This document shows positions 10,172 through 35,146 of a stretch of DNA of 64,000 nt, piece after piece. The position numbers were made by a program, and so were the translations under genes. Within the stretch, counting starts at the first letter, position 1; the number at the start of each line of letters is the position of its first letter. Source of the stretch: a bacterium (lineage in GTDB: Bacteria > AUK180); assembly GCA_023144005.1 (NCBI GenBank), contig JAGLGN010000022.1:1-64000 (forward strand). The letters run 5' to 3'. Under the pieces are notes generated by a model. It was not told where the DNA came from. It did not search any database and was given only the letters and a program-made list of their open reading frames with translations.

Positions 10172-12523
10172 ATGAAGAAGGTGTATCCGATCGCAGGCGG
10201 GAGTAAAGAAATTATGAAAGAAGAAAAAGATCTTTTAAGAACGGAAATCAGTTCAGCTGACATACAAATAGTAAAGAACAGAAAAAAACAATTAATTACT
10301 TTCTATATCTTTCCGATAATTCTGATCGTGCTATTTTTATCTCAGATACTTTTTACGAGTAAAATTATACTTAATAATGATGTTAATTTAATGTACATGC
10401 GTGATTTTACGATCAAGGATTCATTAAAGGATTTTGAAATTCCCCTGTGGGAATATCATTTTCAGATGGGATCTCCGGCAGTATTTTATCCCAACTATCT
10501 TTTCTTGTTTCACTTCCTTCATATAGGTGCAAATCCATTTGCTGGGATGAAGTTATTTTACTTGATCTCGATCATATTGGCCTTTTTATTTATGAAATTC
10601 TACCTGAAAGAGATCGGTTTGTCCGAGACAACTTCCTCCTTATTCGGCCTTGCATATAGCTTTAATTCATATCTTATGGTGCATTTGTTTGCTGGCCATC
10701 TGGGAATCGTTGCGGGTATAACCTTTTTTATTCCAATCCTTATATTTATTGAAAGATCGTTTAAATATGATTCTAAATGGGACGGGGTCGGAATTGTTGT
10801 TAGTACATTCTTTTTCTTTGCCGGTTCTCATGCACAATATGTTTATTACGGTGTGTTCTTTATTCTGTTTTACGTGATTTTCAAGTATTTTCAAACAAAT
10901 AATCGAAAAAGACTAATAAAAGTGATCTTGATCTTTGTCATTTCGGGCCTTATTTCAGCTATTACAGTCTTACCAAGTCTTTATATTGCTTTTTTAGACC
11001 ATTCGCGCGGTACAGGTTTTTCCATGGACCGGGCTTTGAGAAGAAGTTATGATCTTAGACAATATATTTCCTTAATATTACCAAGTTTTTTCGGATATCC
11101 CGAGAACCCTTTTTATTGGGGTAGGCCAACATTTACAGAATTGACTTCATATTCGGGAATTGTACCGTTATTTTTCTCTATTATATTTATTTTTAGCGGT
11201 TGGTTTAAAAAGCAGAAACCATACATCATCTTTTATTTGGTAATAATAATAGGTTCTCTGTTATTGGCCTCAAATTCAATTGCCAATGTACTGATGTTTA
11301 AATATTTCCCGCTTTATAAAATTATCAGAAACCCAGGCCGTATACTCTACTTTTTCATCATGGGGATAACAGTTATCGGCGCCCACGGTTTCCAGAATAT
11401 ATTTTACAAAGAAAAAGCAAAAATTAATTTTGAAATAATTTTCTTTATCATTTCTGGATTAACGGTTCTGTATTTTATACTGCAACCGGTAACTTTTAAT
11501 CTTCTTGGAAAATTTCTGGAAGAGATTAATGTTAAATGGCACAATATTAATTTTAATATTTTCAGATCATTAATCTTCAGTATATTAATTCTTTTGATAC
11601 TTATTTTTCGGAAAAAGATCCGAGTACTATTTCTCATTCCCTTCCTTTTAATGATAATATTCTTTGATCAGTTCGCTTTAGCCCTTCCTATGAAAAAGGG
11701 TCTCGTTTTCAAAGAACCTTTGAACAAGTACAGAAAGATCCTGGACACTATAAAAAAAGATGGAAATATTATAATATACCTGGATCCTAAAAGTGATTTT
11801 GAAGTTCCCGGCTATCTCATGTATACTATTGCAGAGAGCAGAATGAACCCGCTGATTCACTATGCAGAGATCACGCTTCTTAATTATGGTAGTTTCTTAA
11901 ATAGAATTGACGGATTTGAACCATCTCGATATAGGAAGACCAGGAACTATATTGAGAACTATTCGCATATCTATGTTAAATTAGCCTCAGTGCAATATTT
12001 CCTAACTACAATCAAAAATAATTCAAAGGATCTCGAGTTATTTGATCTAAAGGACGGACTCTATATTTACAAGAATAAGAAGGTAAAAGGTCTTTATCCA
12101 TTTCTGCCGGGGAAAAAAGAAATGCTTCCCGACAATTCTCCCGAGTTATTTTTCAAGCCCGACAGAATACAAGAGACAGAATTTTTTATTAATAATCCTC
12201 ATCTTTTCAATAAATTTGAAAAGACCGTGATCGGCAATTTAAACATAAAAAATAATTCTCAATCTTTTGATATAAAAGTCTTTCGAGAAGGGTATCTTAT
12301 CATTAATCAAACACTAACCCCTTTCCATATAATAAGGATCAATGGCAAAAAAACAAAATTTACTGCAATTGATTACATATTTGGTGCGGTCTATCTGGAA
12401 CCGGGGAATTACGATGTAGAGATCCGTTACTCACCGCACGTTAATAAAATAAGCTGGGCACTATTTTTCCTGGGCTTGGCTTTCTTTGGTTTTTACATAT
12501 TTAAGAAGAGACACTTGAAATAA
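10172..12523 (+). CDS. YfhO-like polytopic membrane protein (GT-C type)
   Basis: A 783-residue protein with a short basic cytoplasmic start, about twelve membrane helices (46-505) and a soluble C-terminal part closed by one last helix. YfhO-like signs are the early extracytoplasmic loop, RQYISLILPSFFGYPEN near residue 305, and the tail pattern of LIINQTLTPFHIIRING followed by LEPGNYDVEIRYSP and a final helix. YfhO proteins are thought to transfer sugars from polyprenyl-phosphate donors outside the membrane. A polyprenyl-phosphate-sugar synthase-like gene follows directly, which fits. ATG 10172 lacks a clear ribosome site; ATG 10214 is an alternative. Confidence 0.72.
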   Translation: MKKVYPIAGGSKEIMKEEKDLLRTEISSADIQIVKNRKKQLITFYIFPIILIVLFLSQILFTSKIILNNDVNLMYMRDFTIKDSLKDFEIPLWEYHFQMGSPAVFYPNYLFLFHFLHIGANPFAGMKLFYLISIILAFLFMKFYLKEIGLSETTSSLFGLAYSFNSYLMVHLFAGHLGIVAGITFFIPILIFIERSFKYDSKWDGVGIVVSTFFFFAGSHAQYVYYGVFFILFYVIFKYFQTNNRKRLIKVILIFVISGLISAITVLPSLYIAFLDHSRGTGFSMDRALRRSYDLRQYISLILPSFFGYPENPFYWGRPTFTELTSYSGIVPLFFSIIFIFSGWFKKQKPYIIFYLVIIIGSLLLASNSIANVLMFKYFPLYKIIRNPGRILYFFIMGITVIGAHGFQNIFYKEKAKINFEIIFFIISGLTVLYFILQPVTFNLLGKFLEEINVKWHNINFNIFRSLIFSILILLILIFRKKIRVLFLIPFLLMIIFFDQFALALPMKKGLVFKEPLNKYRKILDTIKKDGNIIIYLDPKSDFEVPGYLMYTIAESRMNPLIHYAEITLLNYGSFLNRIDGFEPSRYRKTRNYIENYSHIYVKLASVQYFLTTIKNNSKDLELFDLKDGLYIYKNKKVKGLYPFLPGKKEMLPDNSPELFFKPDRIQETEFFINNPHLFNKFEKTVIGNLNIKNNSQSFDIKVFREGYLIINQTLTPFHIIRINGKKTKFTAIDYIFGAVYLEPGNYDVEIRYSPHVNKISWALFFLGLAFFGFYIFKKRHLK

Positions 12524-12542
12524 ATTATTTTTATTCTATAAT
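12515..12542 (+). promoter_or_regulatory. leaderless-type promoter
   Basis: TTGAAA (12515-12520), 16 bp spacer, TATAAT (12537-12542), then 6 nt and the ATG at 12549. The -35 lies in the last codons of the preceding gene. No ribosome binding site fits between, so transcription should begin at the start codon. Confidence 0.65.
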
Positions 12543-12548
12543 CTTTAT

Positions 12549-13256
12549 ATGAATAAAGGCTGTATTCTAATTCCCACATATAACGAAGTGGAGAACATTA
12601 AAAATCTCATCTTAAAAATTAGACAGTATCTTACAGATATTCAAATTTATGTAATAGATGATAATTCGCCTGATGGCACAGCAAATATTGTTAGGAAAAT
12701 CGAGGAAACTGATATGAATGTGCGATTAATTTTCAGGCCCAAAAAAAATGGTTTGGGAGCCGCTTATATTCACGGGATGACTGTTGCCGCGGAAAAGGAA
12801 TTTGATTTCGTGATAATGATGGACAGTGATTTTTCACATAACCCAAAACATCTCCCTACAATGATCGAAAATATCCAGAAGTATGATGTGGTGATCGGTT
12901 CCCGTTATGTAAAAGGCGGCGGTATTAAGAATTGGCCCATGTATCGTAAACTTATGAGTTTTGCTGCCAACTACATGATAAAAATTTTCTTAAAGGCAAA
13001 TGTTAAAGACAGTACCACCGGATATAGATGTATAAAAACAAATATATTAAAAAAGATCAAATTTGAAACTATTCATTCTCAGGGATATTCTTTTTTATAT
13101 GAGATGTTATGGCGTATTGAAGGGGTGGGTGCCCGGATAAAGGAGATTCCCATAATATTTATCGATAGGCAATTTGGGCAAACAAAGATATCTCAGGGCG
13201 AAATATTAAAAGCCATGACAATGTTAGTACGATTAAATTTTAGTAGAAAATTTTAA
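12549..13256 (+). CDS. GT2 glycosyltransferase, polyprenyl-phosphate mannose synthase-like (DPM1 type)
   Basis: The 235-residue protein has a GT-A fold start (CILIPTYNEVENI), the DDNSPDGTA motif, MMDSDFSHNP as the metal-binding D-x-D, and DSTTGYRCI in the acceptor region. This order is that of dolichyl/polyprenyl-phosphate mannose synthases, which load a sugar on a lipid phosphate at the inner face of the membrane. It lacks C-terminal helices. The upstream YfhO-like protein is a plausible user of the product. The start codon lies 6 nt after a TATAAT box, so the mRNA is probably leaderless. Confidence 0.83.
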   Translation: MNKGCILIPTYNEVENIKNLILKIRQYLTDIQIYVIDDNSPDGTANIVRKIEETDMNVRLIFRPKKNGLGAAYIHGMTVAAEKEFDFVIMMDSDFSHNPKHLPTMIENIQKYDVVIGSRYVKGGGIKNWPMYRKLMSFAANYMIKIFLKANVKDSTTGYRCIKTNILKKIKFETIHSQGYSFLYEMLWRIEGVGARIKEIPIIFIDRQFGQTKISQGEILKAMTMLVRLNFSRKF

Positions 13257-14165
13257 ATGATGTTCCTGGAAAAGAAATGTCCCTTATGCGGTTCCGATAA
13301 CAGCAAGATCATCCACAGTGGTTACAGACCGGAAAAAATAGATATCAAATCCATGAATTGCACATCCACCGACTTCGGACTTTTCACAAATATCAAAAAA
13401 TGCAGGGAGTGTGGAATGATCTTTCAGTCTCCTGTGCTCACGGAAGAATCTTTGATCGAGCTTTACAAAAATGTGGAAGATCAAATTTATCTTGAAAAAA
13501 ATGAAGAGAGAAAATTGAATTTTTCCCAGTATGTGAAATTGATAAAACAATACCTCTCGAAAAGCTCACATCTTCTCGAGATCGGTTCTTACACGGGAGT
13601 ATTCCTTGAAATGTTAAATAGAGAGGGAATAGGAACGGCTGGTCTGGAACTTTCGGATTGGGCAAGGCAAATTGCAAAAGAAACGGGTGCTGAGGTTTAT
13701 GGTCAACCCCTTTCCCAACTATACGAGGAATTGAAGAATAAATACGACGGCGTCTGTTTATGGGATGTTATTGAGCATTACATTGATCCTCTAAAGGAAT
13801 TAAGCTATATGAATAAGGTGTTGAAAGAAAACGGCTATCTTTTTATTTCCACTCTTGATATATCAAGCTTTACCGCGAAGATACTGGGGAAAAAGTATCC
13901 TTTTCTTATGCTCATGCACACAGTATATTTTTCAAAAAAAACGCTTAAAAAAATCCTTAATAAAACGGGATTTAAAATCATTAAGATAAAAAAGCATAAT
14001 AGGATGGTTTCGGAGAAATATCTTTATAACCGGATAAATACATTCCTGGGAAGGTTTTCCTTCATCGTGAAAATGCCATTTTTTCTCTACTTCCGTATCT
14101 TTGGTAAAAAATTCATTTCCATTGGATTCATGGGCTTGATGGATGTGGTTGCTGTGAAAAAGTGA
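13257..14165 (+). CDS. SAM-dependent methyltransferase with N-terminal zinc ribbon
   Basis: This 302-residue protein has two Cys-x2-Cys pairs (CPLC, CREC) in its first 50 residues, forming a probable zinc ribbon, followed by a class I methyltransferase fold: LLEIGSYTGVFLEML as motif I and GVCLWDVIEHYIDP as the motif IV region. Similar proteins in surface-polysaccharide clusters methylate sugars, but the substrate here cannot be told. It starts at the base after the stop codon of the preceding GT2 gene, so the two are co-transcribed. It converges with the minus-strand glycosyltransferase at 14241. Confidence 0.78.
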   Translation: MMFLEKKCPLCGSDNSKIIHSGYRPEKIDIKSMNCTSTDFGLFTNIKKCRECGMIFQSPVLTEESLIELYKNVEDQIYLEKNEERKLNFSQYVKLIKQYLSKSSHLLEIGSYTGVFLEMLNREGIGTAGLELSDWARQIAKETGAEVYGQPLSQLYEELKNKYDGVCLWDVIEHYIDPLKELSYMNKVLKENGYLFISTLDISSFTAKILGKKYPFLMLMHTVYFSKKTLKKILNKTGFKIIKIKKHNRMVSEKYLYNRINTFLGRFSFIVKMPFFLYFRIFGKKFISIGFMGLMDVVAVKK

Positions 14166-14240
14166 TATTTCCTGAAGAAAAATGGAGTTATCCCTTCTCT
14201 CATTCTTTCCTAAAAACCGCTTTTCATGGATTTGAAAGTG

Positions 14241-15314: not shown

Positions 15315-15317
15315 GGA

Positions 15318-15920: not shown

Positions 15921-15939
15921 AGTTGTTGTAACTCCACTC

Positions 15940-15982: not shown

Positions 15983-15988
15983 CAATTT

Positions 15989-17698: not shown

Positions 17699-17699
17699 A

Positions 17700-18836
17700 A
17701 TGATAAAAGTATTACATGTGGACCTTATATGCAAGGAACATAATTTTCGGGATCCTCAGGATTTTCTGGATAAGCGAGGCACTTCAGTTATGACCGCAAT
17801 GGCATCCCAAATGAATGCGTCCGGCAAATATGAAAATTCAGTCATTTCCCTCACTCGCAAGAAGAAAGGGTATTTCACGGATTATAATGGAATGGAATTC
17901 AGATTCTTTGAGGGCAAACCTTCTTTCCTGCCAAATAACAAATCAGTGAATTTCAAATTGTACAATAAGGAATTAGAAAAATTCACTCTTGATTTCAAGC
18001 CGGATATTTTGCATTTAAATCAAAGTGCGGGGAAGAATTTCTACAGGTACATTTCTTTTCTTCTTCAGAATAATTTTAAATATATCATACATTTCAGGGG
18101 TGGAAACCTTAACAGTTTTCCGAAGGTAAGGCGCAGGGCATTTGAAAGGTCGGCAGCGATTATATTAAATAATCAGGATCAGAAATCTAAGCTAATCAAA
18201 GTATTGCCGCAAATAGATCACCTCCTCAAGGTCGTACCCTTAGGCATAGATACCGAATATTTTACTCCTGATGCAAATCCAATAAACGATGAGATGATAT
18301 TCTGCTATACGGGAAGAATATATGCACATAAGGGCATTGAACAAGCCCTCGCCTTCTTGAGCTCGGTGAAAATGATGGGAGTTCAATTCAAATTTATTGT
18401 TGCAGGGCAATTTGAGACCAAAGAATATGAAAAGCATATCATGAGGAAAATTGAGACTCTTGAACTTCAGGAGCATATTACTTTTCTAGGATACCTGGTT
18501 GGAGATGATCTAAGAAGCATTTATCGAAAGTCAAGATTTCTCCTTTTTTTATCAAAGCACGAATCCTTTGGTAAAAGCGTCGTAGAAGCCATGGCATGTG
18601 GAGCGATCCCGATAGTGAAAAAAAACTCGTCGGGCCCCGAGGCAATAATAGATAACGGTAAATATGGCCATATTCTACCTGAAGATGAATCATTGTGGCC
18701 AGATTTTGTAAGAACAATCACTTTAGATAGTGAAAAATTTCGTGATAAGGTTGTCGCAAGATCGGCGAGCTATTCAAATATTGCATTTATTGACAGGATG
18801 AAGAGGATATACAATGAGATTGTGGCGAATAATTAA
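17700..18836 (+). CDS. GT4 glycosyltransferase
   Basis: A GT-B enzyme of 378 residues starting MIKVLHVDLICKEHN. It has an intact donor domain with IFCYTGRIYAHKGIEQALAFL, FIVAGQFE and LSKHESFGKSVVEAMACG (E-x7-E variant). The start at ATG 17700 is preceded by GGAAAGAGAG and lies one base after the truncated paralogue; an earlier in-frame start inside that gene is unnecessary. The sugar and acceptor are unknown. It overlaps the next (GNAT) gene by 23 nt. Confidence 0.83.
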   Translation: MIKVLHVDLICKEHNFRDPQDFLDKRGTSVMTAMASQMNASGKYENSVISLTRKKKGYFTDYNGMEFRFFEGKPSFLPNNKSVNFKLYNKELEKFTLDFKPDILHLNQSAGKNFYRYISFLLQNNFKYIIHFRGGNLNSFPKVRRRAFERSAAIILNNQDQKSKLIKVLPQIDHLLKVVPLGIDTEYFTPDANPINDEMIFCYTGRIYAHKGIEQALAFLSSVKMMGVQFKFIVAGQFETKEYEKHIMRKIETLELQEHITFLGYLVGDDLRSIYRKSRFLLFLSKHESFGKSVVEAMACGAIPIVKKNSSGPEAIIDNGKYGHILPEDESLWPDFVRTITLDSEKFRDKVVARSASYSNIAFIDRMKRIYNEIVANN

Positions 18837-19374
18837 GCTTTTTAGAAACAACTTCAGCTCTACAAAGTCCATTATATTTCGTTTTGAAGGTGCTATCTTC
18901 CAATCTCGCAAGGAAGAACTTTCCATTGTATTGACAAAGGATAAAAAGGAGTTAGAGAGAATACTAGATTTCAGGCCGCAGGGTACATATGAAAACATAA
19001 AGAAGTTGTATAATGCTGGTGAAAGCGTATATCTCGTTTTTTACAATGACTTATGCGTCCATCATAGTCTGGTCTTTCGTAATGATTCCGATGCGGAGGT
19101 GCAAAAAGAACATATCAACATACCCGCGCATACCGCATGGATACATTACTGCAATACGGCCGTTGGTCACCGCGGGAAAGGGATCTATCCCTATGTTATC
19201 AATTATATAGCAAAAGCATTAACAGACTCTGGCAATGGGATGGATAGGATTATTATTGATACGGAACAAAAAAATATCCCATCGCAAAAGGGGATTATCA
19301 AGGCGGGATTTAGGGAAATGGGAATGGTCAAAAGATCTGTATTTTTTGGCAAAGAGAAGATCAAAGGATGTTAA
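18814..19374 (+). CDS. GNAT family N-acetyltransferase
   Basis: The 186-residue protein has the acetyl-CoA-binding GNAT motif A (GHRGKGIYPYVINYI) and motif B (NIPSQKGIIKAGF). The first 30 residues are basic. The start overlaps the preceding glycosyltransferase by 23 nt with GAGG upstream. In this setting it may acetylate an amino sugar, for example the Fuc4N expected from rfbA-rfbB-wecE, but the sequence does not prove this. Confidence 0.75.
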   Translation: MRLWRIIKLFRNNFSSTKSIIFRFEGAIFQSRKEELSIVLTKDKKELERILDFRPQGTYENIKKLYNAGESVYLVFYNDLCVHHSLVFRNDSDAEVQKEHINIPAHTAWIHYCNTAVGHRGKGIYPYVINYIAKALTDSGNGMDRIIIDTEQKNIPSQKGIIKAGFREMGMVKRSVFFGKEKIKGC

Positions 19375-19375
19375 T

Positions 19376-21724: not shown

Positions 21725-23137
21725 ATGAAGAATTTTAAAAATAAATTTATTGCTTCTCTTGCGAGTTCATATATTATTCAATTTTCAATAATGGGAATTA
21801 GCTTTATTTCTCAGATGGTTATTGCAAGGGTATTGGCAAATTCCGATTTTGGACTTTTTGCAATGGCTGCCTTTGCAAATCTTATCTTGGCAAATATAGT
21901 TAATCTCGGCTTCGGAAAACATTTAATAAGAACTGATTATGAAAAATGGGGAAATGCGATTCTCTTGCAATTTATTGCAATGGGCGTTATCGTTACTCTA
22001 TTTCAAGTATATCCTCAAGTAATTAGTTTTTACAGCAGCGATATCGTCGTAATAATGAAGATATACTCCTTAAATTTGATTTTTTTAACTATATCTTCGA
22101 TTTTTAATACTTACCTATTGAAAGAATTGAAAATTCAGAAGATGATCATTCCCCAGATAATATCAACGATTATCTATGTGATATCCGTTATCTATCTAGG
22201 ATTTCATCATTATGGGGTCTGGGCAATAATCTATGCAACAATGATTAGTGAAATCTTCAAATCGCTTTACCTTTCTGTAGTTTGTGGAAAAGAATTGTTT
22301 TCAAGATTTAAATTCACTTTTGAATACAGCTTCGAGTTGTTGAACGGTGCATTCTATCTTTTTCTAATTTTGTTAGTAGGGAATTTCTACAATCAGATCC
22401 ATAATGCCCTTTTAGGTAAGTTTCTAACTCCCGCTTTTGTGGGAATGTTTTATCTTGCGTATAGATTTGTTCTCTTGCCTGAGAAAATTATATCAAAAGC
22501 CTTTCGCCAGGTGCTCTACCCAGCCTATGCTGAAAATGTCAATAATAAGGAAAGAGTTCAAAAGATTATTAAATTCTCGACACTTACAGTTGTGGCGATT
22601 GAAGTATTTATTTATGTTTTGATGTTTATTTATGCGGACTTGATCATTAAAATAGTTTACGGAAACAGTCATCTTGATATAGTACCGCTTTTTAGATTTA
22701 TCTGTTTCTTACCGATTATTTTTCCATTCGGCAAATTCTCAGAGGCATTAATTATAAGCCACAGATATGAAAAATGGGGGTTTTGGGGATTACTATTTGT
22801 AATCGCGGTAAGCATCTTATTAGGCAGTGTTCTGATTCCCATCTATAAGAATTATGGAATGGGACTGGTAAAATATATTATTGCATTTATCTCGCTACTG
22901 CCAATTATCATCACAGTTTTTAAGATTAAGATTAAGTTATTTTATAAAGAATACTTCCTTGTGTATCTTCCATTATTAGCACTGTTCGCGACAATATTTG
23001 ATTTGAAAGTGAGATTGTACCTTTTATTCTTCATAGGAATTTACTTTCTAGTAATTTTCTATTTTGAATATAAGTACATTTTTAGTCGTTATGTTTCACT
23101 TAGAAAACTAGTTCGAAAAAGACAGGCAAAGAAATGA
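21725..23137 (+). CDS. oligosaccharide flippase (Wzx-like, MATE/MVF superfamily)
   Basis: The 470-residue protein has 12-14 hydrophobic segments and the Wzx-type start (IQFSIMGISFISQMVIARVL, then SDFGLFAMAAFANLI). The middle has LAYRFVLLPEKIISKAFRQVLYPAYAE, common in the lipopolysaccharide biosynthesis subgroup. Such proteins move lipid-linked glycan units to the periplasmic face. The gene is visibly more AT-rich than the housekeeping genes. Its 3' end overlaps the asparagine-synthetase-like gene by 4 nt. No convincing promoter was found in the 61 nt before it. Confidence 0.85.
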   Translation: MKNFKNKFIASLASSYIIQFSIMGISFISQMVIARVLANSDFGLFAMAAFANLILANIVNLGFGKHLIRTDYEKWGNAILLQFIAMGVIVTLFQVYPQVISFYSSDIVVIMKIYSLNLIFLTISSIFNTYLLKELKIQKMIIPQIISTIIYVISVIYLGFHHYGVWAIIYATMISEIFKSLYLSVVCGKELFSRFKFTFEYSFELLNGAFYLFLILLVGNFYNQIHNALLGKFLTPAFVGMFYLAYRFVLLPEKIISKAFRQVLYPAYAENVNNKERVQKIIKFSTLTVVAIEVFIYVLMFIYADLIIKIVYGNSHLDIVPLFRFICFLPIIFPFGKFSEALIISHRYEKWGFWGLLFVIAVSILLGSVLIPIYKNYGMGLVKYIIAFISLLPIIITVFKIKIKLFYKEYFLVYLPLLALFATIFDLKVRLYLLFFIGIYFLVIFYFEYKYIFSRYVSLRKLVRKRQAKK

Positions 23138-24947: not shown

Positions 24948-24952
24948 GAAAC

Positions 24953-25078
24953 ATGAGTAATTTAAAAAGTAGTTTTCAGTTATTACCTCCACCAATTATT
25001 TACTTTGAAGTAGCGGCATTCTTCAAAAATGAATTTTGTTCAGGCAATATATTTCTTTATCAAAGAATAAATACCTGA
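24953..25078 (+). CDS. possible small leaderless gene or leader peptide (41 aa)
   Basis: A 41-codon frame begins 5 nt after a TATAAT box, in the same geometry as the leaderless genes of this window, and ends 8 nt before the start of the large membrane protein. The product is MSNLKSSFQLL followed by PPPIIYFEVAAFF and a short polar tail; no family is recognised. It may be a small protein, a leader peptide coupling translation to the next gene, or a relic. Confidence 0.4.
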   Translation: MSNLKSSFQLLPPPIIYFEVAAFFKNEFCSGNIFLYQRINT

Positions 25079-25086
25079 GAGAAAAT

Positions 25087-26817
25087 ATGAAAAGTAAAAT
25101 TTATGAGAGGGAAGGATTTGTTCTAATTACAATGTTTATTTACACGAACTTATTTTTATTGCTAAACGGCTATTATTTCGGCATTTACGATCATTCGATA
25201 ATGCTTCCCTTTATCTATAAATTTGGTAATCCCGACCTTTTCCCAGGGGACCTTTTGGCTTCCACTTATAAAAATACCTATACAATTTATGTTCCTATGA
25301 TGAGTATATTAATAAAGTATTTCAATACGCAAGCGGTATTTTTTATTCTTCATTATATTTCCATGTTCTTCACTTTTCTGGGGATCTTCAAAATCTCTGA
25401 AAAATTGTTTAATTCAGTTGCGGGCTTTTTCTCTTTGATCCTGATATTCTCGGGGCTGAAATTCTATATAGGCGGCTCACCTATATTTACAAATATGCTT
25501 GCTCAGTACAATATAGCTCTGCCGCTTGTACTGTTCGGCCTTTTGTATTTTTTCAAAGAGAAAAAAATAATCGCCTTTATTCTATTTGGCGTAGCATTTA
25601 ATTTCCATGCAATGCTGACATTCTATACCTTTGTTGGAATTGGACTTTATTATCTTTCCATGATCAAAAAGCTACGATTCAAACAAGACATATTACCGAT
25701 TCTGATTTTTATTATGATCTCTCTTCCCACTCTGATATGGATACTATCTGATATGAAAACGGGTTCTCACCAGGAATGGGTAGAGATATTGAGAGCAGTT
25801 CAATCACACCATGTCTTCCCCTTTTCCTTTCCTTTGAAAACATATTTGGGCTTTTTAATAGTGGTATTTATTGGATTATTCTTGAATAAATACGATATGA
25901 AAAGGAATGACCACAAGCTGATTCTGTGTATATACGGAGGAATGTTTATTCTATTTGTCTTCGGTACTGTCTTTACTGAAATGTTTCCGGTTGGCTTTTT
26001 TATCAAAGGGCAGATGTTTCGTTCATGTAAAATCCCAATAATATTCACATTCATTTTTCTTGCCGGATATATACAAACTCAGTTTAAATCTTCTTTCAAG
26101 GGTAAATTCCTCTATGTTATTGCAACTCTATTTCTCCTTCTTAATATGTACTTGGCTTTTTTCCTGACACTTTTAGCGAGTTTGATCTCTAAAAAGATGA
26201 ATAGGGAACTAATACTACCTGTTTCGGGGTTTTTCTTCATTTTTTCTGTTCTGGCAATATCATTTGACAATATTTTTGATGTGGGAGTGAAACTGAGTCT
26301 TGTAGTCCTTTCCGCTTCAATTGTCTATAGTGTAATCAAGAATAAAAGAATTAAAAGTGTCATTGTAATATGCCTTTTTGGACTATTTCTGCTTTATATA
26401 TTTATTCCGAGATTCCTGAAAATCGGCCAAATTAAATTCGAACACATTAAAGCGGCAGGATTGTGGGCGAGAGAGAATACTTCCCAACAGGCAAAGTTTT
26501 TTATTGATCCCGGCCTATATAATTTCCGTTCATGGTCAAAAAGAAGCGTTTATGTAACATGGTCAGAAGGAACAAGAGGTCTCTTTAACGTTGAATATTG
26601 TTTCAACTGGTGGTCAAGAGTGAAAAAGTTGAAAGTTGTTAAGCGGGCGGATCTGAAAGATTTTTCAAAAACAATAGATTTAGAAATGCTTGAAAATGTG
26701 AAGAATGAATACGATTTCAAGTATGTTGTTGCGCAGAAAGATATATTTCTGAATCTACCTGTGATGTATGAGAACAAAGAATTGACTATCTATGAATATA
26801 TTGGAGCAGGGATATAA
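25087..26817 (+). CDS. large polytopic membrane protein, GT-C-like, unassigned
   Basis: The 576-residue protein has about eleven hydrophobic helices up to residue 450, then a soluble extracytoplasmic tail of about 130 residues. An early loop (NGYYFGIYDHSIMLPFI, then NPDLFPGDLL) resembles the acidic first loop of GT-C transferases. The tail has FFIDPGLYNFRSWSKRSVYV. I cannot name the family with certainty. A polyprenyl-phosphate-sugar synthase-like GT2 gene follows 51 nt later. ATG 25087 follows GAGAG; an open frame from TTG 25036 overlaps the small upstream gene. Confidence 0.65.
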   Translation: MKSKIYEREGFVLITMFIYTNLFLLLNGYYFGIYDHSIMLPFIYKFGNPDLFPGDLLASTYKNTYTIYVPMMSILIKYFNTQAVFFILHYISMFFTFLGIFKISEKLFNSVAGFFSLILIFSGLKFYIGGSPIFTNMLAQYNIALPLVLFGLLYFFKEKKIIAFILFGVAFNFHAMLTFYTFVGIGLYYLSMIKKLRFKQDILPILIFIMISLPTLIWILSDMKTGSHQEWVEILRAVQSHHVFPFSFPLKTYLGFLIVVFIGLFLNKYDMKRNDHKLILCIYGGMFILFVFGTVFTEMFPVGFFIKGQMFRSCKIPIIFTFIFLAGYIQTQFKSSFKGKFLYVIATLFLLLNMYLAFFLTLLASLISKKMNRELILPVSGFFFIFSVLAISFDNIFDVGVKLSLVVLSASIVYSVIKNKRIKSVIVICLFGLFLLYIFIPRFLKIGQIKFEHIKAAGLWARENTSQQAKFFIDPGLYNFRSWSKRSVYVTWSEGTRGLFNVEYCFNWWSRVKKLKVVKRADLKDFSKTIDLEMLENVKNEYDFKYVVAQKDIFLNLPVMYENKELTIYEYIGAGI

Positions 26818-26833: not shown

Positions 26834-26862
26834 TTGTATTATTAAATCAAAAAATGTATAAT
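26834..26862 (+). promoter_or_regulatory. leaderless-type promoter overlapping a false ATG
   Basis: TTGTAT (26834-26839), 17 bp spacer ending TG, TATAAT (26857-26862), then 6 nt to GTG at 26869. The ATG at 26854 lies inside the promoter and would not be transcribed. Confidence 0.6.
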
Positions 26863-26868
26863 AACGCC

Positions 26869-27594
26869 GTGGTAAATAAACTAGAGAAAGTCAGTATTGT
26901 TATTCCGTGTTTCAACGAGGCAAAGTATTTACATGAGATGATCAAAAAAGTCTTGAATGCTGATGTCTTAGGCCTGGAAAAAGAAATTATCATTATCGAT
27001 GATGCTTCTTCTGACAATAGTCCTGATATTATTACAGAATTATCATCTTCACATAAAGAGATCACCCACATATTGAAAAAGAAAAATCAAGGGAAAGGCG
27101 CAGCGTTGCAATCAGGTTTTGAGCTATGCACCGGAGATATAATAATTATTCAGGACTCTGACCTTGAATTGAACCCCGATGAATATCCTGATTTACTTAG
27201 ACCCATTTTAGATTTAGGAATGGATGTTGTGTACGGCTCGAGATTCTTAAAACTGTCTCACAAAGCCTTCAATTATAAGAGTTATTTGGCGAATAAATTC
27301 TTAACAAATCTTTCTAATGTTTTCACGAATGTCAGGCTAACAGATATAGAAACATGCTACAAAGTATTTAAAAGAAAAGTGATAGATAGGCACCAATTTA
27401 ATAGTAAGAGATTCGGTTTCGAAGTTGAATTTACAACCGTTGTTTCGGCAATGAGATTAAATATTTATGAAGTTCCCGTAACATATTTCGGGAGAACTTA
27501 TGGGGAAGGCAAGAAAATCGGTTTTTCGGATGGCGTAGAAGCGGTGTTTCTGATTATTTGGACGAATTTATTTTTAAAAATCTATAATAAGTAG
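26869..27594 (+). CDS. GT2 glycosyltransferase, DPM1-like
   Basis: A family 2 enzyme of 241 residues with VSIVIPCFNEAKYL, IIDDASSDNSPD, NQGKGAALQSGFE and IIQDSDLELNPDEYP (metal-binding D-x-D). The TDIETCYKVFKR segment matches the polyprenyl-phosphate-sugar synthase group. No C-terminal helices are present. GTG 26869 is chosen because it lies 6 nt after TATAAT, while the frame's first ATG (26854) is within the promoter. It would supply the lipid-linked sugar for the GT-C-like protein before it. Confidence 0.8.
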   Translation: MVNKLEKVSIVIPCFNEAKYLHEMIKKVLNADVLGLEKEIIIIDDASSDNSPDIITELSSSHKEITHILKKKNQGKGAALQSGFELCTGDIIIIQDSDLELNPDEYPDLLRPILDLGMDVVYGSRFLKLSHKAFNYKSYLANKFLTNLSNVFTNVRLTDIETCYKVFKRKVIDRHQFNSKRFGFEVEFTTVVSAMRLNIYEVPVTYFGRTYGEGKKIGFSDGVEAVFLIIWTNLFLKIYNK

Positions 27595-28075: not shown

Positions 28076-28978
28076 TCACTTTCTCAGTGTTATTCCCGGC
28101 AGGAAGAATGCTCCGATCAGAGCTGTGAGTAATATATTGAAAGCGAAAGAAAGAAATGATGCATTAAATGCTGCCGTTTCAGTAACATTAAATGGGCTTA
28201 GAAGATATATCGCGGTTCCCTCTCGCAGTCCCAATCCGAAAAGGGTGATAGGAACGACGCTCATGAATTGGATCAGAGGCGCCGTCTTGAGTATGGCAAT
28301 GAATTCTATATGGTCAAAACCATTTACCAGTAGATAGAATTGAGTAAACACTAAGAAGTACATAGCAAGAGAAAAAAGGAGTACAACAAATATGGTATTT
28401 CGCTTCACTTTACCGTAATGTGAAACAAATTGATGTATTTTGCACCCGATCTTTGATTTTGAACGAGTTCCCGTCTTTGAAATATAAAGCCGCAGAGATT
28501 TGATGAAAAGAAAGATCAGTATGCCTCCGGAAAGTCCAATTGTGAAGAGAACAATTGCCGGGTTTCTGATGATTTTGATCACTCCCCACAGCGAAAACAG
28601 GGTAATCGATAAAAGATCTATAAACCGATCTACAAAAACCAAACCACCGATCTCAGTTTCCTTGCCGACCGAAAGAAAAAGTCCGCGGGAAACCTCTCCT
28701 ACTCTTCCCGGCGTCATTATCCCCAGTGCCATGCCTCCGGTTATAGAACGGAAAGAATTAATAAAGCTGACTTTAATTCCGGAACTTTTCAGCAGCAGCA
28801 TCCACTTAAAGGATTTTATCGCTATTATCAAGGCAGTGATCAATAGGGCCAGAATAAGGTATCGAATATTGGCATTTCCCACAACATTTAGAAATTTAGA
28901 AAATTCAAATTTGCGGAAAATAAAAAATAATAGTAGAGCGGAAATGAAGAGCTTGGCGATGAATTGAAGCTTTTTCAT
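28076..28978 (-). CDS. flippase-like membrane protein (UPF0104, LPG-synthase TM domain)
   Basis: The 300-residue protein has seven or eight hydrophobic helices and the family marks TPGRVGEVSRG (about residues 88-98) and PITLFGLGLREG (near 255). The domain is the membrane half of MprF and also occurs alone in glycan loci, where a lipid-translocating role is suggested. It lacks the aminoacyl-transferase half of MprF. A second member of the family is at 34166-35146. No clear promoter or ribosome site was found. Confidence 0.78.
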   Translation of the reverse strand: MKKLQFIAKLFISALLLFFIFRKFEFSKFLNVVGNANIRYLILALLITALIIAIKSFKWMLLLKSSGIKVSFINSFRSITGGMALGIMTPGRVGEVSRGLFLSVGKETEIGGLVFVDRFIDLLSITLFSLWGVIKIIRNPAIVLFTIGLSGGILIFLFIKSLRLYISKTGTRSKSKIGCKIHQFVSHYGKVKRNTIFVVLLFSLAMYFLVFTQFYLLVNGFDHIEFIAILKTAPLIQFMSVVPITLFGLGLREGTAIYLLSPFNVTETAAFNASFLSFAFNILLTALIGAFFLPGITLRK

Positions 28979-29282: not shown

Positions 29283-30905
29283 ATGAAATATGTAGTGATA
29301 TTTGTCGCTTTTATCTGTATTTTACTATTCTATTATTTTATACTTAAGCATATCACATTCAAGAAAAAAACATTATATCCCATAGTTATTTTATTTGCCT
29401 TCACAATTTTTTCTCCATATTTATCTACTAACATACAAATACTGATTTCTTTTGCTCTGAGTATATTTCTCGCTTATCACTATTCTAAAGATGCAAAATT
29501 GCGATCTCGCCCAATTCCCGTTTCTGCTCTCATTATTCTGTATGTTTGCGTTCTGACGATTGCCGTATCTCTTAGGTATTTTGCTTTCAATAATGCAATG
29601 CTTGATCTTGGAAATATGCTTCAGCCCATCTTCAATACAGCACAAGGAAAGTTTATGTCTTTATCTGGAGCGGAAGGTAATATCGTTCGATTTTCCGGAC
29701 ACAAGGAATTAATATACCTTCTTCTGGTACCTTTTGTAAAAATATTTCCTTCAGGGATTACGATACTATTTTTACAAACTCTCTTAGTCGGGTTATCAGC
29801 CATTGCTATCAATAAAATAGCATTCCTGATAACAGATCGAAAAGATATTGCATTTATGATCGCAGGGGCATTCCTCTTATACCTTCCTTTGCAATTTTCA
29901 AATCTTGCGGATGTTCACGGTGATACAATAGGCATCTTTTTTATTTCTTTCGCGATTTATTTTTATTTAAAAAGAAAACTCTGGATTTTTACTATTTTTA
30001 TGTTCCTATCTATGTCATGTAAAGAATATATTCCTGTGATATTTTTTTTCTGGGGCATTGCAATGTTGATATTTGAGAAAAGGTATATTTCTGGAGTAAT
30101 TGCATGTACGTTTTCGTTGTTCTTCTATTTTTGGATTCTGAAATTTATCGGATCATTTTATCCTGTGGCTTTTACAAGTGAAAACCTCCATTTTTCTCAG
30201 AGTTTTACGAATCATTTTTTGAACATAGCAAATATGGAAAAGTGGAAAAATATAGCCATGCTGTTTGTTCCCTTTCTTTTTCTATCGTTAAAGAAGTGGA
30301 GAACACTTATACCCACGCTGCCAATCTTTGGGGGTATTCTATTGTCAGGCCATGGAAATGTTGCAAATATCCGTTGGCACCATTGGTCAACGATCTTACC
30401 GTTTATTGTCCTTGCCTTGGTGTTAGAGGTAAAGACCTTAAAAAAGTGCAAAATTTTAGTTAAACCCTTGAATGGTAGAGATCCATTAATTTTTCTAATT
30501 ATATACATTATAGCGTTTTCGTTTCTTTCGAATGGATCTGGTTTTGGTTATCGATTTTGGCACCCGGAGGAATATTACTTTTTTAACAGTAAAGCAACAT
30601 ACGGAATCACTCAGCATGACAAGTTGCTCATTAATGAATTAAAGAAATATAAGGATCCGGCACTAAGAATCACTACTACACAGATGTTAGCAACTCATCT
30701 TTGCATGAGGGAACATGTAAATCTATTAATGTGGAATGATTACAAAAGGATTGATCGTTCGGATTTTGTGATATTCTCGTATGTCGACTTATTTATAAAC
30801 GCTGCGAGAGGAAATAAGATGGAAAAAGGTATTTCTTATGTCCGCAGATCAGATAAATTTACGCGAATCTCCATTTATCCATTGGAAATATATAAGCATA
30901 AATGA
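29283..30905 (+). CDS. DUF2079-like polytopic membrane protein (GT-C type)
   Basis: The 540-residue protein has about twelve hydrophobic segments. DUF2079-like signs are the loop LRYFAFNNAMLDLGNMLQPI (about 95-115), RFSGHKELIYLLLVPFV with its histidine, FLQTLLVGLSAIAINK, and FSNLADVHGDTIGIFF. The family belongs to the GT-C-like membrane proteins, probably using a polyprenyl-phosphate donor. A GtrB-like GT2 gene occurs two genes downstream (32087). Strongly AT-rich compared with the housekeeping genes. Confidence 0.75.
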   Translation: MKYVVIFVAFICILLFYYFILKHITFKKKTLYPIVILFAFTIFSPYLSTNIQILISFALSIFLAYHYSKDAKLRSRPIPVSALIILYVCVLTIAVSLRYFAFNNAMLDLGNMLQPIFNTAQGKFMSLSGAEGNIVRFSGHKELIYLLLVPFVKIFPSGITILFLQTLLVGLSAIAINKIAFLITDRKDIAFMIAGAFLLYLPLQFSNLADVHGDTIGIFFISFAIYFYLKRKLWIFTIFMFLSMSCKEYIPVIFFFWGIAMLIFEKRYISGVIACTFSLFFYFWILKFIGSFYPVAFTSENLHFSQSFTNHFLNIANMEKWKNIAMLFVPFLFLSLKKWRTLIPTLPIFGGILLSGHGNVANIRWHHWSTILPFIVLALVLEVKTLKKCKILVKPLNGRDPLIFLIIYIIAFSFLSNGSGFGYRFWHPEEYYFFNSKATYGITQHDKLLINELKKYKDPALRITTTQMLATHLCMREHVNLLMWNDYKRIDRSDFVIFSYVDLFINAARGNKMEKGISYVRRSDKFTRISIYPLEIYKHK

Positions 30906-30924
30906 TTAAAACCGGTGCTGCTGC

Positions 30925-30953
30925 TTGAATAAGCATAAAAAATGGGATAAAAT
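30925..30953 (+). promoter_or_regulatory. leaderless-type promoter with GTG start
   Basis: TTGAAT (30925-30930), 17 bp spacer, TAAAAT (30948-30953), then 5 nt to GTG at 30959. No ribosome binding site lies between. Confidence 0.6.
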
Positions 30954-30958
30954 GAATT

Positions 30959-32041: not shown

Positions 32042-32052
32042 TTTACTAAATA

Positions 32053-32081
32053 TTGAAAACCTTCTAATTATGGTATATAAT
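32053..32081 (+). promoter_or_regulatory. leaderless-type promoter
   Basis: TTGAAA (32053-32058), 17 bp spacer, TATAAT (32076-32081), then 5 nt to the ATG at 32087. Confidence 0.65.
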
Positions 32082-32086
32082 AGAAC

Positions 32087-33037
32087 ATGTCAAAAATAGA
32101 GCTTTCGATAATTATTCCCGTTTATAATGAAGAGGGTAATGTTCAGGAACTTTTCGACCGTATCCTCCTTGCCATGAGCAAAACAAAAATTCCCTATGAA
32201 ACGATTTTTGTTGATGACGGCTCAACAGATTCTTCTTCTGAGATCCTTTCTTATATTTGCCGTCACCATGAAGGGTTTATATTGATTCGTTTCCGGAAGA
32301 ATTTCGGACAGACTGCCTCCATGCAAGCCGGGATTGATAAATCCAGAGGCAAATATATATGTTTCTTGGATGGAGATCTGCAGAATGACCCTGATGATAT
32401 TGAGAAGCTTTACACAAAAGCCTCAAAGGGATACGACATTGTAAGCGGATGGCGCCATAAAAGAAAGGATAAATTCATTTCCAGGAAGCTTCCTTCAATG
32501 ATCGCAAATTCTATAATTGCTAAGGCAACTGGTGTCAAGCTACATGATTATGGTTGTTCATTAAAGATGTACAATGGGGATCTCCTTCGTGCTACTCCGC
32601 TTTACGGCGAAATGCACCGATTCATCCCAGCTCTAATATCATTAAAAGGTGCCAATGTAGCAGAGATGAAAGTAAGCCATCACCCCAGGAAGGCCGGAAA
32701 ATCCAAATACGGCATCTCCCGCACCTTCAGGGTGATCTTGGATCTTATAACTGTGAAGTTTTTTGGAAGTTTCTCCACCAAGCCCCTACATATCTTTGGC
32801 GGGTGGGGAATGCTTTCCTTTTCCCTGGGTGTCGTTATCTCTCTTTACCTCACCATTCTCAAGTTATTTTTCAATCAATCAATCGGTAGCCGCCCCTTGC
32901 TTTCCTTGGGAATACTCCTCATCTTTTTGGGCATACAATTTGTGACAATCGGACTCATAGGAGAGTTTCTTACCAGGATCTATTTTGAAAATCAAGGAAG
33001 AAAAACCTATCATATCAGAGAAATCATTGAAAAGTGA
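32087..33037 (+). CDS. GT2 polyprenyl-phosphate glycosyltransferase with two C-terminal helices (GtrB/ArnC-like)
   Basis: The 316-residue protein has LSIIIPVYNEEGN, FVDDGSTDSS, FRKNFGQTASMQAGID and FLDGDLQNDPDD (D-x-D), typical of GtrB/ArnC/DPM1 enzymes. HHPRKAGKSKYG is the acceptor-loop motif of the group. Two membrane helices (about 235-258 and 270-295) follow, as in GtrB. Such enzymes make polyprenyl-phosphate-sugar for GT-C transferases; the DUF2079-like protein upstream is a candidate partner. GTGA overlap with the next gene. Confidence 0.87.
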   Translation: MSKIELSIIIPVYNEEGNVQELFDRILLAMSKTKIPYETIFVDDGSTDSSSEILSYICRHHEGFILIRFRKNFGQTASMQAGIDKSRGKYICFLDGDLQNDPDDIEKLYTKASKGYDIVSGWRHKRKDKFISRKLPSMIANSIIAKATGVKLHDYGCSLKMYNGDLLRATPLYGEMHRFIPALISLKGANVAEMKVSHHPRKAGKSKYGISRTFRVILDLITVKFFGSFSTKPLHIFGGWGMLSFSLGVVISLYLTILKLFFNQSIGSRPLLSLGILLIFLGIQFVTIGLIGEFLTRIYFENQGRKTYHIREIIEK

Positions 33038-34191
33038 AAGGAGACTACAATAGAAAGAAGATCCTTATTATAACCGCATCCGGCTTCGTTCTCCCTCGAG
33101 GTTGCAGCCTTCACTTACACTCTTTCATATCCGTTCTTAATCAAGTTGGTTTTAGTAATATTACTTTACTGGCTCCCAGGTATGGAATAGATGATACATT
33201 TGGTAAAAAAGTATTTATTAAAAGATATGGCATTAAGGGCTTTAAAAAATATCCGGTAGGTTTTTCTGTAGCAAAATTACTAAATCTTCCGTTTTTTATA
33301 ATGGCAGCGATTTTTTCATTCAGAAGGAGTTATGACTATGTAATTGCACATGATCACGAGGGGCTATTTGCCGGAACAATATTGAAATTAGTATTCGGTA
33401 AAAAGTTTATTTATCTGAGTGAAAATCCCATTTCATCTGTATTGAAATCTACTAATTCCAATGTAATAATGTTAATATTAGCCGATATCTTTGAAAAAAT
33501 ATTTTACCGGATAATTTCAGGATTGATTACAAATTTCTCCTATGAATTAGTTGATATCGGCAAGTATAAAAGAAAACATCATCTCGCAATGCAACTGAAA
33601 ATCAGCCCGGATCTTTCCATTTCCGATTATCATAATCAAGCTCTGAATATTCCTGAGAAATATATAATCTATGTGGGTAACTTTAAGTCATATCAGGGTT
33701 TGGAATCCCTTATCAATGCGATGAGAATTATCAAGAATTCAGAGGATGAAAAAGTCACATTACTAATTGTTGGCGGTGACAGTGACCCGGCAAGAGAATC
33801 CAATATTCGAGGACTCGCAAATGATCTGCCGAATGTAATATTTTCAGGTTTTCTACCTTTGGGAAAAGCTAATTATCTTATTAAAAACTCATATTTTGGA
33901 ATTTCACTTCAACAAGGGTATAAGCCTTTTTCCACGAAAATATATTCATATCTACTCTTGGGAAAGCCGTGTGTAGTAACCACAAGCAAGGTAAATAAAT
34001 TAGAGTTGGAGAGATATAATATTGTTAGATTTGCCAAGGAAGATCCCGAGGATATCGCCCGTAACATTCTTCTTTTATGGAAAGACCGAGAACTCCACCG
34101 GAAATTAAGGAATTCCATATTAGATTTCTCTAAGGAATTTAGAATAGATTATATCAAAAACAAACTTATTTCCTTGTTGGATCTGTTTTAA
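33034..34191 (+). CDS. GT4 glycosyltransferase
   Basis: The 385-residue protein starts at GTG 33034 in a 4-nt overlap with the GT2 gene. The N-terminal Rossmann half reads KKILIITASGFVLPRGCSLHLHSF. The second half has YIIYVGNFKSYQGLESLINAM, LLIVGGDSD and a C-terminal KIYSYLLLGKPCVVTTS in place of the full E-x7-E, a form common in GT4 variants. The function is a sugar transfer of unknown specificity. It converges with the minus-strand flippase-like gene and overlaps it by 26 nt. Confidence 0.75.
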   Translation: MKGDYNRKKILIITASGFVLPRGCSLHLHSFISVLNQVGFSNITLLAPRYGIDDTFGKKVFIKRYGIKGFKKYPVGFSVAKLLNLPFFIMAAIFSFRRSYDYVIAHDHEGLFAGTILKLVFGKKFIYLSENPISSVLKSTNSNVIMLILADIFEKIFYRIISGLITNFSYELVDIGKYKRKHHLAMQLKISPDLSISDYHNQALNIPEKYIIYVGNFKSYQGLESLINAMRIIKNSEDEKVTLLIVGGDSDPARESNIRGLANDLPNVIFSGFLPLGKANYLIKNSYFGISLQQGYKPFSTKIYSYLLLGKPCVVTTSKVNKLELERYNIVRFAKEDPEDIARNILLLWKDRELHRKLRNSILDFSKEFRIDYIKNKLISLLDLF

Positions 34192-35146
34192 GCCCAAACT
34201 TTTCTTCGCCCTGATGTTTCTTGATTTCCGCGTAATTTACCTTACTTATTGCAAAACACACTCCTCCGATCAAGCCCATTATTACATAAGCAGCCCTATT
34301 AACGAGTGAAATCATAATCGCCTTTGGGTATATAATGCCGGCTAATCCAGAAAAATAAGTAAATCCGGCCTCTGAGATCCCCAGACCATTTAGTGCTATT
34401 GGGATCATTGAGATCAGAGTTACAGCAGGGAAAAAGAAAAGTACATAAGTAAACTCTATTAGCTCCCCTGAAAAACGAAAAAAATAATATACATTCAGAT
34501 ATGTTGTAATTTGGATAATTGCTGATAAAAGCAATATAGCCATGATCCTTTTTCCCTTAAAATATTCACTGATAGCGTTATATTGCTTAATAAAATTCCG
34601 AACTTTGTTCAATATCATCGAGCGAGGTTTGGATTTTTCTAATACTTTGAAGGTTTTTGGGTGAAGAACTACAAATAACAGCATTAGTAATGCCGGATAT
34701 GAAATACAAAGGATACACAACAATCTCCAGTCAAGGGCACGCCAGTGAAAAAGCAATCCCACAATTCCAGTAAGTACCAAAAGCAAAAGCCCCCAGATCC
34801 GTGGAAGGAAAATACCCGCAAATGCAATAGGCGAAGAAACCCCTGTCTCCCTTTTCAATAAATAAAATCTAGCAAAATCACCACCTACCATTGTGGGGAG
34901 AAAATTGTTAAAAAATAAACCGATGAATATGTATTTCAACAGTGAGGCAATCGATGAAGTAGCAACTATAAGTTTCCACAGAACCGCAGCGATAAACACT
35001 TTTAAAGAGGATAGAATGACGATCGGAAATAAATATTTCAATTCAAAGGATTCGAAAGAAAGCGATTTAAACTCCAATTTAGTCAACAAAATATATATCA
35101 AAAATGTGGTAAATATTAACTTAAGCAGAAAAAAAGTTTTTTTCAT
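34166..35146 (-). CDS. flippase-like membrane protein (UPF0104, LPG-synthase TM domain)
   Basis: The 326-residue protein has about eight hydrophobic helices and family marks FNNFLPTMVGGDFARFYLL (about 80-98) and PIALNGLGISEAGFTYF (near 255-271). It lacks any catalytic domain and is the second family member in the window. It follows the epimerase by 7 nt in the same operon. Its 3' end overlaps the convergent glycosyltransferase by 26 nt. Confidence 0.78.
   Translation of the reverse strand: MKKTFFLLKLIFTTFLIYILLTKLEFKSLSFESFELKYLFPIVILSSLKVFIAAVLWKLIVATSSIASLLKYIFIGLFFNNFLPTMVGGDFARFYLLKRETGVSSPIAFAGIFLPRIWGLLLLVLTGIVGLLFHWRALDWRLLCILCISYPALLMLLFVVLHPKTFKVLEKSKPRSMILNKVRNFIKQYNAISEYFKGKRIMAILLLSAIIQITTYLNVYYFFRFSGELIEFTYVLFFFPAVTLISMIPIALNGLGISEAGFTYFSGLAGIIYPKAIMISLVNRAAYVIMGLIGGVCFAISKVNYAEIKKHQGEEKFGLKTDPTRK

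Follow-up and report, generated by a model that had tools for sequence, protein, structure and literature searches.

The window, by which we mean the whole stretch of 64,000 nucleotides that was analysed, carries a cluster of GT-C-like membrane proteins, GT2 glycosyltransferases and flippase-like proteins. The locus is a low-GC island. The open reading frames of the initial annotation exist at or very near the coordinates given there. The frame assigned to position 25087 is real, but that position is an internal ATG and the ORF begins at 25036. The features considered here are as follows.

10172..12523, plus strand: YfhO-family membrane protein, predicted GT-C (pair 1), from Pfam matches of homologues
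12549..13256, plus strand: DPM1-like GT2 without a TM domain (pair 1), from its match to 5mlz
13257..14165, plus strand: class I methyltransferase (PF13489), third gene of the YfhO/GT2 unit
21725..23137, plus strand: Wzx-type flippase (PF13440/PF01943), a rival candidate for movement of lipid-linked sugars
25036..26817, plus strand: GT-C-like membrane protein with a DUF6798 C-terminus (pair 2), from PF20604 and profile comparison
26854..27594, plus strand: ArnC/DPM1-like GT2 without TM helices (pair 2), from ArnC and DPMS matches
28076..28978, minus strand: UPF0104/PF03706 protein (E 1.6e-32) with the MprF flippase-domain fold in its model
29283..30905, plus strand: DUF2079 protein (PF09852, E 1e-26), predicted GT-C glycosyltransferase (pair 3)
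32087..33037, plus strand: polyprenyl-phosphate-sugar synthase of the ArnC/GtrB type, ending in two TM helices (pair 3), from PDB matches
34166..35146, minus strand: second UPF0104/PF03706 protein (E 1.6e-34)
35154..36125, minus strand: NDP-sugar epimerase/dehydratase (PF01370/PF16363)

In pair 1, the 10172 protein itself matches no Pfam family, and 14 of its 16 homologues match YfhO (PF09586). Comparison of the YfhO and PMT_2 profiles by hhalign gave no signal (0.7%); therefore, the prediction of a GT-C is based on YfhO membership and published work on YfhO. The GT2 gene follows after 25 bp, and its product was aligned with the Pyrococcus DPM synthase (5mlz) over residues 4–228 (E 2.3e-33). 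In the tree, it clusters with GT2-GtrA fusions (support 98/91), yet it has no GtrA domain. A genome of the same genus (G001) encodes a counterpart of 10172 with 98% identity, followed by matches to the two downstream genes; the methyltransferase is 99.7% identical and the gene order is the same. A comparable trio at another locus (L296) has PMT_2 in the place of YfhO.

The sole Pfam match of 25036 in pair 2 is DUF6798. The profile of its family, from which two spurious or truncated sequences (L245 and L239) were left out, matched the DUF2079 profile in hhalign (85%, E 6.7e-6; control, 0.1%), and by this profile comparison only the protein is predicted to be GT-C-like. The GT2 gene, separated from it by 36 bp, matches ArnC (E 3.8e-25) and DPMS (E 1.9e-21), and its counterpart in G001 (97% identical) adjoins a gene for 593 residues. 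In pair 3, one GT4 gene sits between the two members. Along its whole length, the 32087 protein matches ArnC (9hwj, E 4e-52) and GtrB sll0501 (5eke, E 1.7e-38). The best folds for the 29283 model, which is of low confidence, are all GT-C (PglB, OST, ALG9, ALG12, PimE and ArnT). PDB sequence searches with 10172, 25036, UPF0104, YfhO and DUF2079 as queries gave no useful match.

Both UPF0104 proteins (PF03706) pass the Pfam gathering cut-off of 33.4 bits, with 113.6 bits for 28076 and 120.2 bits for 34166. The AF2 model of 28076 (pLDDT 88) was matched by Foldseek to six MprF entries of the PDB with a probability of 1.00 and TMq of 0.57–0.66; among the matches listed, none besides MprF exceeded 0.33. 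The 34166 protein shares at most about 28% identity with its sampled relatives, and a GT2 link was not found among these relatives. Its gene is probably co-transcribed with the epimerase/dehydratase gene across a 7-bp gap.

Both UPF0104 genes lie on the minus strand and oppose the GT2/GT-C genes on the plus strand; therefore, the window by itself shows no module. In the window, UPF0104 and GT2 are encoded by separate genes and do not form a single AglD-like GT2-UPF0104 polypeptide. The initial annotation had proposed three parallel modules, each with its own flippase. This arrangement is not supported: the genome has at least four GT2/GT-C pairs and the cluster has two UPF0104 genes, neither of them co-directional with a pair. 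The fourth pair (GT2/DUF2079) is on another contig (C34), with no flippase gene near it.

GtrA (PF04138) has no match in the genome, while 7 of the 14 control genomes gave a match in the same search, and an SMR gene was likewise not found. These genome-wide checks were family searches in a genome that is 96% complete. In the window, there is no ORF of 60–200 residues with three or more TM segments, and a search of the UPF0104 neighbourhoods for a GtrA ORF found none. The possibility that a gtrA gene lies close by outside the window, which was raised with the initial annotation, was thus not borne out. Across the class, GtrA occurs in none of seven genomes and PF03706 in all seven. GtrA is present in 51 of 241 sampled genomes. 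In the genome-level tally, 8 genomes had both families, 4 GtrA only, 40 UPF0104 only and 8 neither; this exclusion is not significant (Fisher P 0.23), and we do not claim a global replacement of GtrA by UPF0104.

The association of UPF0104 with GT2/GT-C pairs, which the initial annotation expected to find elsewhere, was borne out by the neighbourhood search, both as overlapping operons and as fusions. In G001, a GT2 (6173–7123), a UPF0104 protein (7120–8022) and a DUF2079 protein (8019–9641) are encoded with 4-bp overlaps. The UPF0104 protein of this operon is the orthologue of 28076 (83% identical), and the GT2 is ArnC/GtrB-like across residues 3–295. A second operon of G001 has the order GT2-acyltransferase-UPF0104-methyltransferase-DUF2079, and a further genome (G002) has a GT2-UPF0104 arrangement. 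Orthologues of 32087 at two loci (L053 and L058, 70–71% identity) are one gene away from UPF0104. In MAGs of Chloroflexi and Deltaproteobacteria, UPF0104 adjoins DUF2079, and at one locus (L292) the same DUF2079 family adjoins a GT2-GtrA fusion. Fusion polypeptides of UPF0104 and PMT_2 (949, 960 and 760 residues, plus a fourth with 77% identity) were found in four genomes; three of the four are near a 2-TM GT2, and those of L092 and L157 include a deacetylase domain. No relative of the 28076 clade was found on viral contigs.

In 60 genomes, UPF0104 lay directly beside a 2-TM GT2 on the same strand in 7 of 12 loci (1.98 expected, P 0.0007), and a genome scan placed it so in 9 of 24 (3.45 expected, P 0.004). 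UPF0104 lives in glycan loci, so that a random-position null (0/26 and 0/77) is too easy; the statistic is therefore based on a within-locus null.

These genome comparisons suggest that an MprF-like UPF0104 protein, not GtrA, carries the loaded lipid across the membrane. We consider it probable that the locus performs extracytoplasmic glycosylation of the gtr/CsbB-YfhO kind with the crossing made by UPF0104, for which 28076 is the best candidate. The GT2s (32087, 12549 and 26854) would load a sugar onto polyprenyl phosphate at the cytoplasmic side, the lipid would cross via a UPF0104 protein of the MprF transport fold in this GtrA-less lineage, and the GT-Cs (29283, 10172 and 25036) would pass the sugar to an acceptor outside. 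One GtrA-type protein of Lactococcus serves more than one pair, and 28076 may similarly serve several pairs in trans. The UPF0104 protein is probably an unselective scramblase, with specificity provided by the supplying GT2 and the consuming GT-C. We infer the transport of polyprenyl-phosphate-sugars, the sugar, the acceptor and the assignment of pairs to UPF0104 proteins. The replacement of GtrA proposed in the initial annotation is well supported for 28076, whereas the case for 34166 is weak; the replacement could not be tied to three modules.

So far, this fold is known to act on phospholipids and glycolipids, which we counted against polyprenyl-phosphate-sugar transport. The two UPF0104 proteins could flip or scramble such lipids in a locus that merely collects membrane genes, and polyprenyl-phosphate-sugars would have another mover. 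The PF03706 proteins studied so far, namely MprF (PMC11980842), HexF (PMC10128005) and the predicted GpgF (PMC12713373), are all tied to phospholipids or glycolipids. The third UPF0104 gene of the genome (on contig C11) is within a Wza/Wzz export operon and not beside a GT2, and 21 sampled UPF0104s form one clade without a 2-TM GT2 neighbour; therefore, the family does not have a single function. However, the partners in hexSDF/gpgSDF are synthases of the GT4 or MGDG type and a deacetylase, while those found here are ArnC/GtrB-class GT2s and GT-Cs in overlapping or fused genes, and the UPF0104-GT2 adjacency exceeds the within-locus null. We regard this alternative as unlikely.

It is still less likely that the Wzx-type protein (21725), or another Wzx/MATE protein of the genome, moves the polyprenyl-phosphate-sugars and that UPF0104 is accessory. 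The gene lies between pairs 1 and 2 and is 97% conserved in G001, and GacK in S. pyogenes and ORF14 in Citrobacter are precedents (PMC8035078, PMC11127046). However, the cluster also encodes a Wzy_C-type protein; therefore, repeat units are the expected cargo of Wzx, and the GT2/GT-C operons of relatives contain UPF0104, not Wzx. A chance mosaic, in which a glycan island gained GT2, GT-C and uncoupled UPF0104 genes by horizontal transfer, would agree with the low GC content and with the shuffled gene order relative to G001 (28076 is orthologous to the UPF0104 protein of locus L052 and 32087 to the GT2 of locus L053), but it is very improbable given the 4-bp overlaps of the GT2-UPF0104-GT-C frames, the fusions in four genomes and the permutation P of 0.0007.

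Beyond this locus, we lean slightly towards the view that the UPF0104 clade with the motifs TPGRxGE...R and P-x-x-x-x-G-x-G-x-R-E is a further bacterial family of polyprenyl-phosphate-sugar flippases or scramblases, which swaps with GtrA beside the same DUF2079/PMT_2 proteins and in some lineages is fused to a GT-C as a self-contained flip-and-transfer enzyme. Direct demonstration of polyprenyl-phosphate-sugar flipping is rare, GtrA-type proteins included. Many sampled GtrA-less genomes carry GT2/GT-C genes and, if UPF0104 performs the flipping, it would be a candidate for their missing step. The PF03706 fold would then handle not only phospholipids but also polyprenyl lipids, and a natural flippase-GT-C fusion would bring flipping and transfer together in a single protein for structural biology.

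Multi-component transmembrane glycosylation systems (PMC8035078, PMC7389260) include the glucosylation of O-antigen by GtrA-GtrB-Gtr(C) and the glycosylation of lipoteichoic acid by CsbB-GtcA-YfhO. As in these systems, a GT2 synthase and a GT-C are encoded in one locus, the YfhO and GtrB/ArnC families are common to both, and several pairs may share one flippase. Of the three Gtr components, the GtrB/DPM1-class synthase and the GT-C (for 25036, by profile only) are present and GtrA is absent; the flippase candidate is UPF0104 (PF03706, seven predicted TM helices) instead of GtrA (PF04138). Another membrane family likewise takes the place of GtrA in Citrobacter youngae (GT136 pentofuranose system; PMC11127046) and in S. 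pyogenes (GacIJKL; PMC8035078). However, the replacement there is MATE/Wzx, and the GT-C families differ.

MprF and HexF/GpgF belong to the same Pfam family as 28076, which shares the MprF fold (PMC11980842, PMC10128005, PMC12713373), and the MprF of P. aeruginosa acts as a promiscuous scramblase (PMC11980842). Unlike the polyprenyl-phosphate-sugar setting here, their partners make aminoacyl-PG or glycolipids and include no GT-C. The hexSDF/gpgSDF arrangement (UPF0104, a GT4/MGDG-type synthase and a deacetylase) was not found for the 28076 orthologues.

The substitution of GtrA by UPF0104 is less novel than the initial annotation held, because Wzx/MATE swaps have been published (PMC8035078, PMC11127046) and Makarova et al. 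(2015) predicted a UPF0104/COG0392 (arCOG00899) flippase in archaeal glycosylation, near AglD-like GT2s and PMT/STT3-like GT-Cs, with AglD itself a GT2-UPF0104 fusion (PMC5898192). The present case resembles the archaeal one in that UPF0104 is found beside DPM1/AglD-like GT2s and PMT/STT3-like GT-Cs. It differs in being bacterial, in its overlapping operons, where ArnC/GtrB-type 2-TM GT2s are combined with DUF2079 or PMT_2, and in the fusion partner of UPF0104, which is a GT-C here and a GT2 in AglD. The idea of a UPF0104 flippase is thus already known from archaea, and the parts that look new are the bacterial operon and the GT-C fusion.

The window covers bases 1-64000 of contig C15. The glycan island, at about 10 to 55 kb of the window, has a GC content of 0.32-0.40 vs 0.41-0.45 in its flanks. 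It contains many GT4s and sugar-nucleotide enzymes, plus the GT2, GT-C and UPF0104 genes in which the initial annotation saw three decoration modules, with UPF0104 proteins possibly replacing the GtrA flippase. ORFs are simple calls throughout, and the relatives are mostly metagenome-assembled. The called frames 18814-19374 and 19235-20347 overlap by 140 bp, the second being GNAT-like (PF13480); their start sites are probably misplaced. The candidate flippases of the island and its Wzy_C-type protein are as follows.

28076-28978, minus strand: UPF0104 (PF03706)
34166-35146, minus strand: UPF0104 (PF03706)
21725: Wzx
44779: Wzy_C-type protein

The reading of the three GT2 proteins as polyprenyl-phosphate-sugar synthases was upheld at the level of family assignment. 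The protein at 32087-33037 has two C-terminal TM helices and aligns over its length with ArnC (9hwj, E = 4e-52) and GtrB sll0501 (5eke, E = 1.7e-38). The protein at 12549-13256 matched the Pyrococcus DPM synthase (E = 2.3e-33), and that at 26854-27594 matched ArnC and DPMS. The GT-C reading of their partners stands as family membership for two of the three. The protein at 29283-30905 is a DUF2079 member; its AlphaFold model has low confidence (pLDDT 56), and its best Foldseek matches are all GT-C enzymes (e.g., PglB, OST, ALG9, and ALG12). The protein at 10172-12523 has no Pfam family match of its own, and a YfhO match was found in 14 of its 16 homologues. The third protein (25036-26817), whose sole Pfam match is DUF6798, is only GT-C-like: profile comparison linked its family to DUF2079 (85%, E = 6.7e-6) and DUF2079 to PMT_2 (71%, E = 3.6e-5), vs 0.1% in control comparisons with UPF0104. 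A methyltransferase completes a YfhO-GT2-methyltransferase trio at 10172-14165. It seems to belong to the unit because a second trio in a genome of the same genus (L296:16164-18952), in which PMT_2 replaces YfhO, keeps partners that are 47-60% identical.

The only convincing matches to the model of 28076 (41-sequence alignment, pLDDT 88) were six MprF structures, all at probability 1.00. A gtrA gene near by outside the window had been named as evidence against the substitution; neither GtrA nor an SMR protein was found in the genome (2.67 Mb, 38 contigs, 96% complete), nor is there a small polytopic ORF in the window. Among the sampled genomes of the class, this one and only six others, GtrA occurs in 0/7 and PF03706 in 7/7. 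Judged from the window alone, the link of UPF0104 to GT2/GT-C function is one of proximity only: both genes run in the opposite direction to the GT2 and GT-C genes, and 34166 comes 7 bp after an epimerase gene. A third UPF0104 gene (contig C11, 30782-31669; L061:7032-7991) lies between genes for a Wza-type export protein and a Wzz/GNVR kinase, and a LysM protein is encoded upstream. Each of the five genomes of the family has an orthologue of this UPF0104 gene, and in L051 and L054 the surrounding genes are of similar size.

Operons were found in the relatives. The homologous cluster of the same-genus genome (L052) encodes a GT2 (6173-7123), a UPF0104 protein (7120-8022; 83% identical to 28076), and a DUF2079 protein (8019-9641), with 4-bp overlaps. 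Its second operon (L053) is ordered GT2 (70% identical to 32087), hexapeptide acyltransferase, UPF0104, methyltransferase, and DUF2079, the acyltransferase and methyltransferase being identified by reading the sequence without Pfam. Relative to these operons the window appears reshuffled: 28076 is orthologous to the UPF0104 of L052 but 32087 to the GT2 of L053. UPF0104 also abuts a GT2 in another relative (L055).

UPF0104 and PMT_2 are also fused in single frames.

L092/L172 (one genome seen twice): 949 aa
L157: 960 aa
L154: 760 aa

UPF0104 occupies residues ~13-288 and PMT_2 ~350-510, and the two long fusions add a polysaccharide deacetylase. A genome of the G052 phylum, which may be that of L157, carries a 77%-identical version as a single open frame; the tally is thus three or four genomes. 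A 2-TM GT2 lies near all three fusion loci read (L154, L157, and L172), and the L092 UPF0104 domain shares a supported clade with 28076 (99/98). In other fusions, UPF0104 is joined to a hexapeptide acyltransferase (L103:7028-8788, 586 aa), functions seemingly encoded by adjacent overlapping genes in L053 and L058; preceded by 400 unassigned residues (L293:5790-7949, 719 aa); or followed by a beta-propeller-like repeat (L294:6005-7939, 644 aa).

The association with GT2/GT-C genes was borne out in other genomes. With a profile seeded with the window's own GT2s, a GT2 of their class was found within 5 kb of 17/56 UPF0104 genes vs 0/26 random loci (60 genomes, P = 0.0009). In a test against a stricter within-locus null, UPF0104 directly adjoined a 2-TM GT2 on the same strand at 7 of 12 loci (1.98 expected, P = 0.0007). 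When a species-genome collection was scanned using the 28076 clade, 65 loci from many phyla were recovered, where UPF0104 adjoins GT2s, DUF2079 (Chloroflexi L153, Deltaproteobacteria L192) or PMT_2; the same adjacency occurred at 9 of 24 loci (3.45 expected, P = 0.004), counts that describe the clade of the five GT2-linked seeds and not the whole family. A 21-row UPF0104 clade shows no GT2 association, which is confined to part of the family.

GtrA neighbourhoods run parallel: GtrA adjoins GT2, is fused to it, or lies beside PMT_2, and in L292 a DUF2079 gene directly follows a GT2-GtrA fusion. No GtrA ORF was detected in the UPF0104 neighbourhoods with a profile built in this analysis. In the GT2 tree, GtrA-adjacent GT2s are interspersed among UPF0104-adjacent ones, beside those of the same-genus genome and the L055 relative, at support that is not strong (89/78). 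The 12549 protein groups with GT2-GtrA fusions (98/91) yet lacks a GtrA domain, so this lineage's GT2 type bears its own GtrA elsewhere. Its nearest relative in the tree is the DPM1-like GT2 domain terminating an apparently radical-SAM-like protein (L196:2500-4722, 740 aa), with a UPF0104 gene two genes off.

We infer lipid transport by UPF0104, as well as the sugar and the acceptor. The GT2 would load the lipid with sugar on the inside, UPF0104 would equilibrate the charged lipid between the membrane sides, and the GT-C protein would consume it outside. Archaeal UPF0104 has been predicted to be a glycosylation flippase from AglD fusions and AglD-like and PMT/STT3-like neighbourhoods (PMC5898192), HexF and GpgF are PF03706 proteins of glycolipid systems (PMC10128005, PMC12713373), and published systems have Wzx or MATE proteins in place of GtrA (PMC8035078, PMC11127046). 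In a search of literature made up largely of open-access journal papers, neither GtrB-UPF0104-GT-C operons of bacteria nor fusions of UPF0104 to a GT-C were described.

The genome has a fourth GT2/DUF2079 pair on contig C34 (L297:6725-8802, minus strand; 4-bp overlap), with no flippase-like gene in the surrounding 15 kb. A single flippase may serve several GT2/GT-C pairs, as reported for CflA of Lactococcus (PMC8035078); the flippase-less operon is compatible with such sharing in trans, though it is no proof of it. P. aeruginosa MprF is a promiscuous, energy-independent scramblase, and its enzyme partner is believed to determine its role (PMC11980842). A UPF0104 protein whose substrate is fixed by the partner in its operon or fusion would fit that picture. 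DUF2079 is the most variable gene across the relatives' operons (39% and 36% identical to 29283), and in this it resembles the acceptor-specific Gtr proteins.
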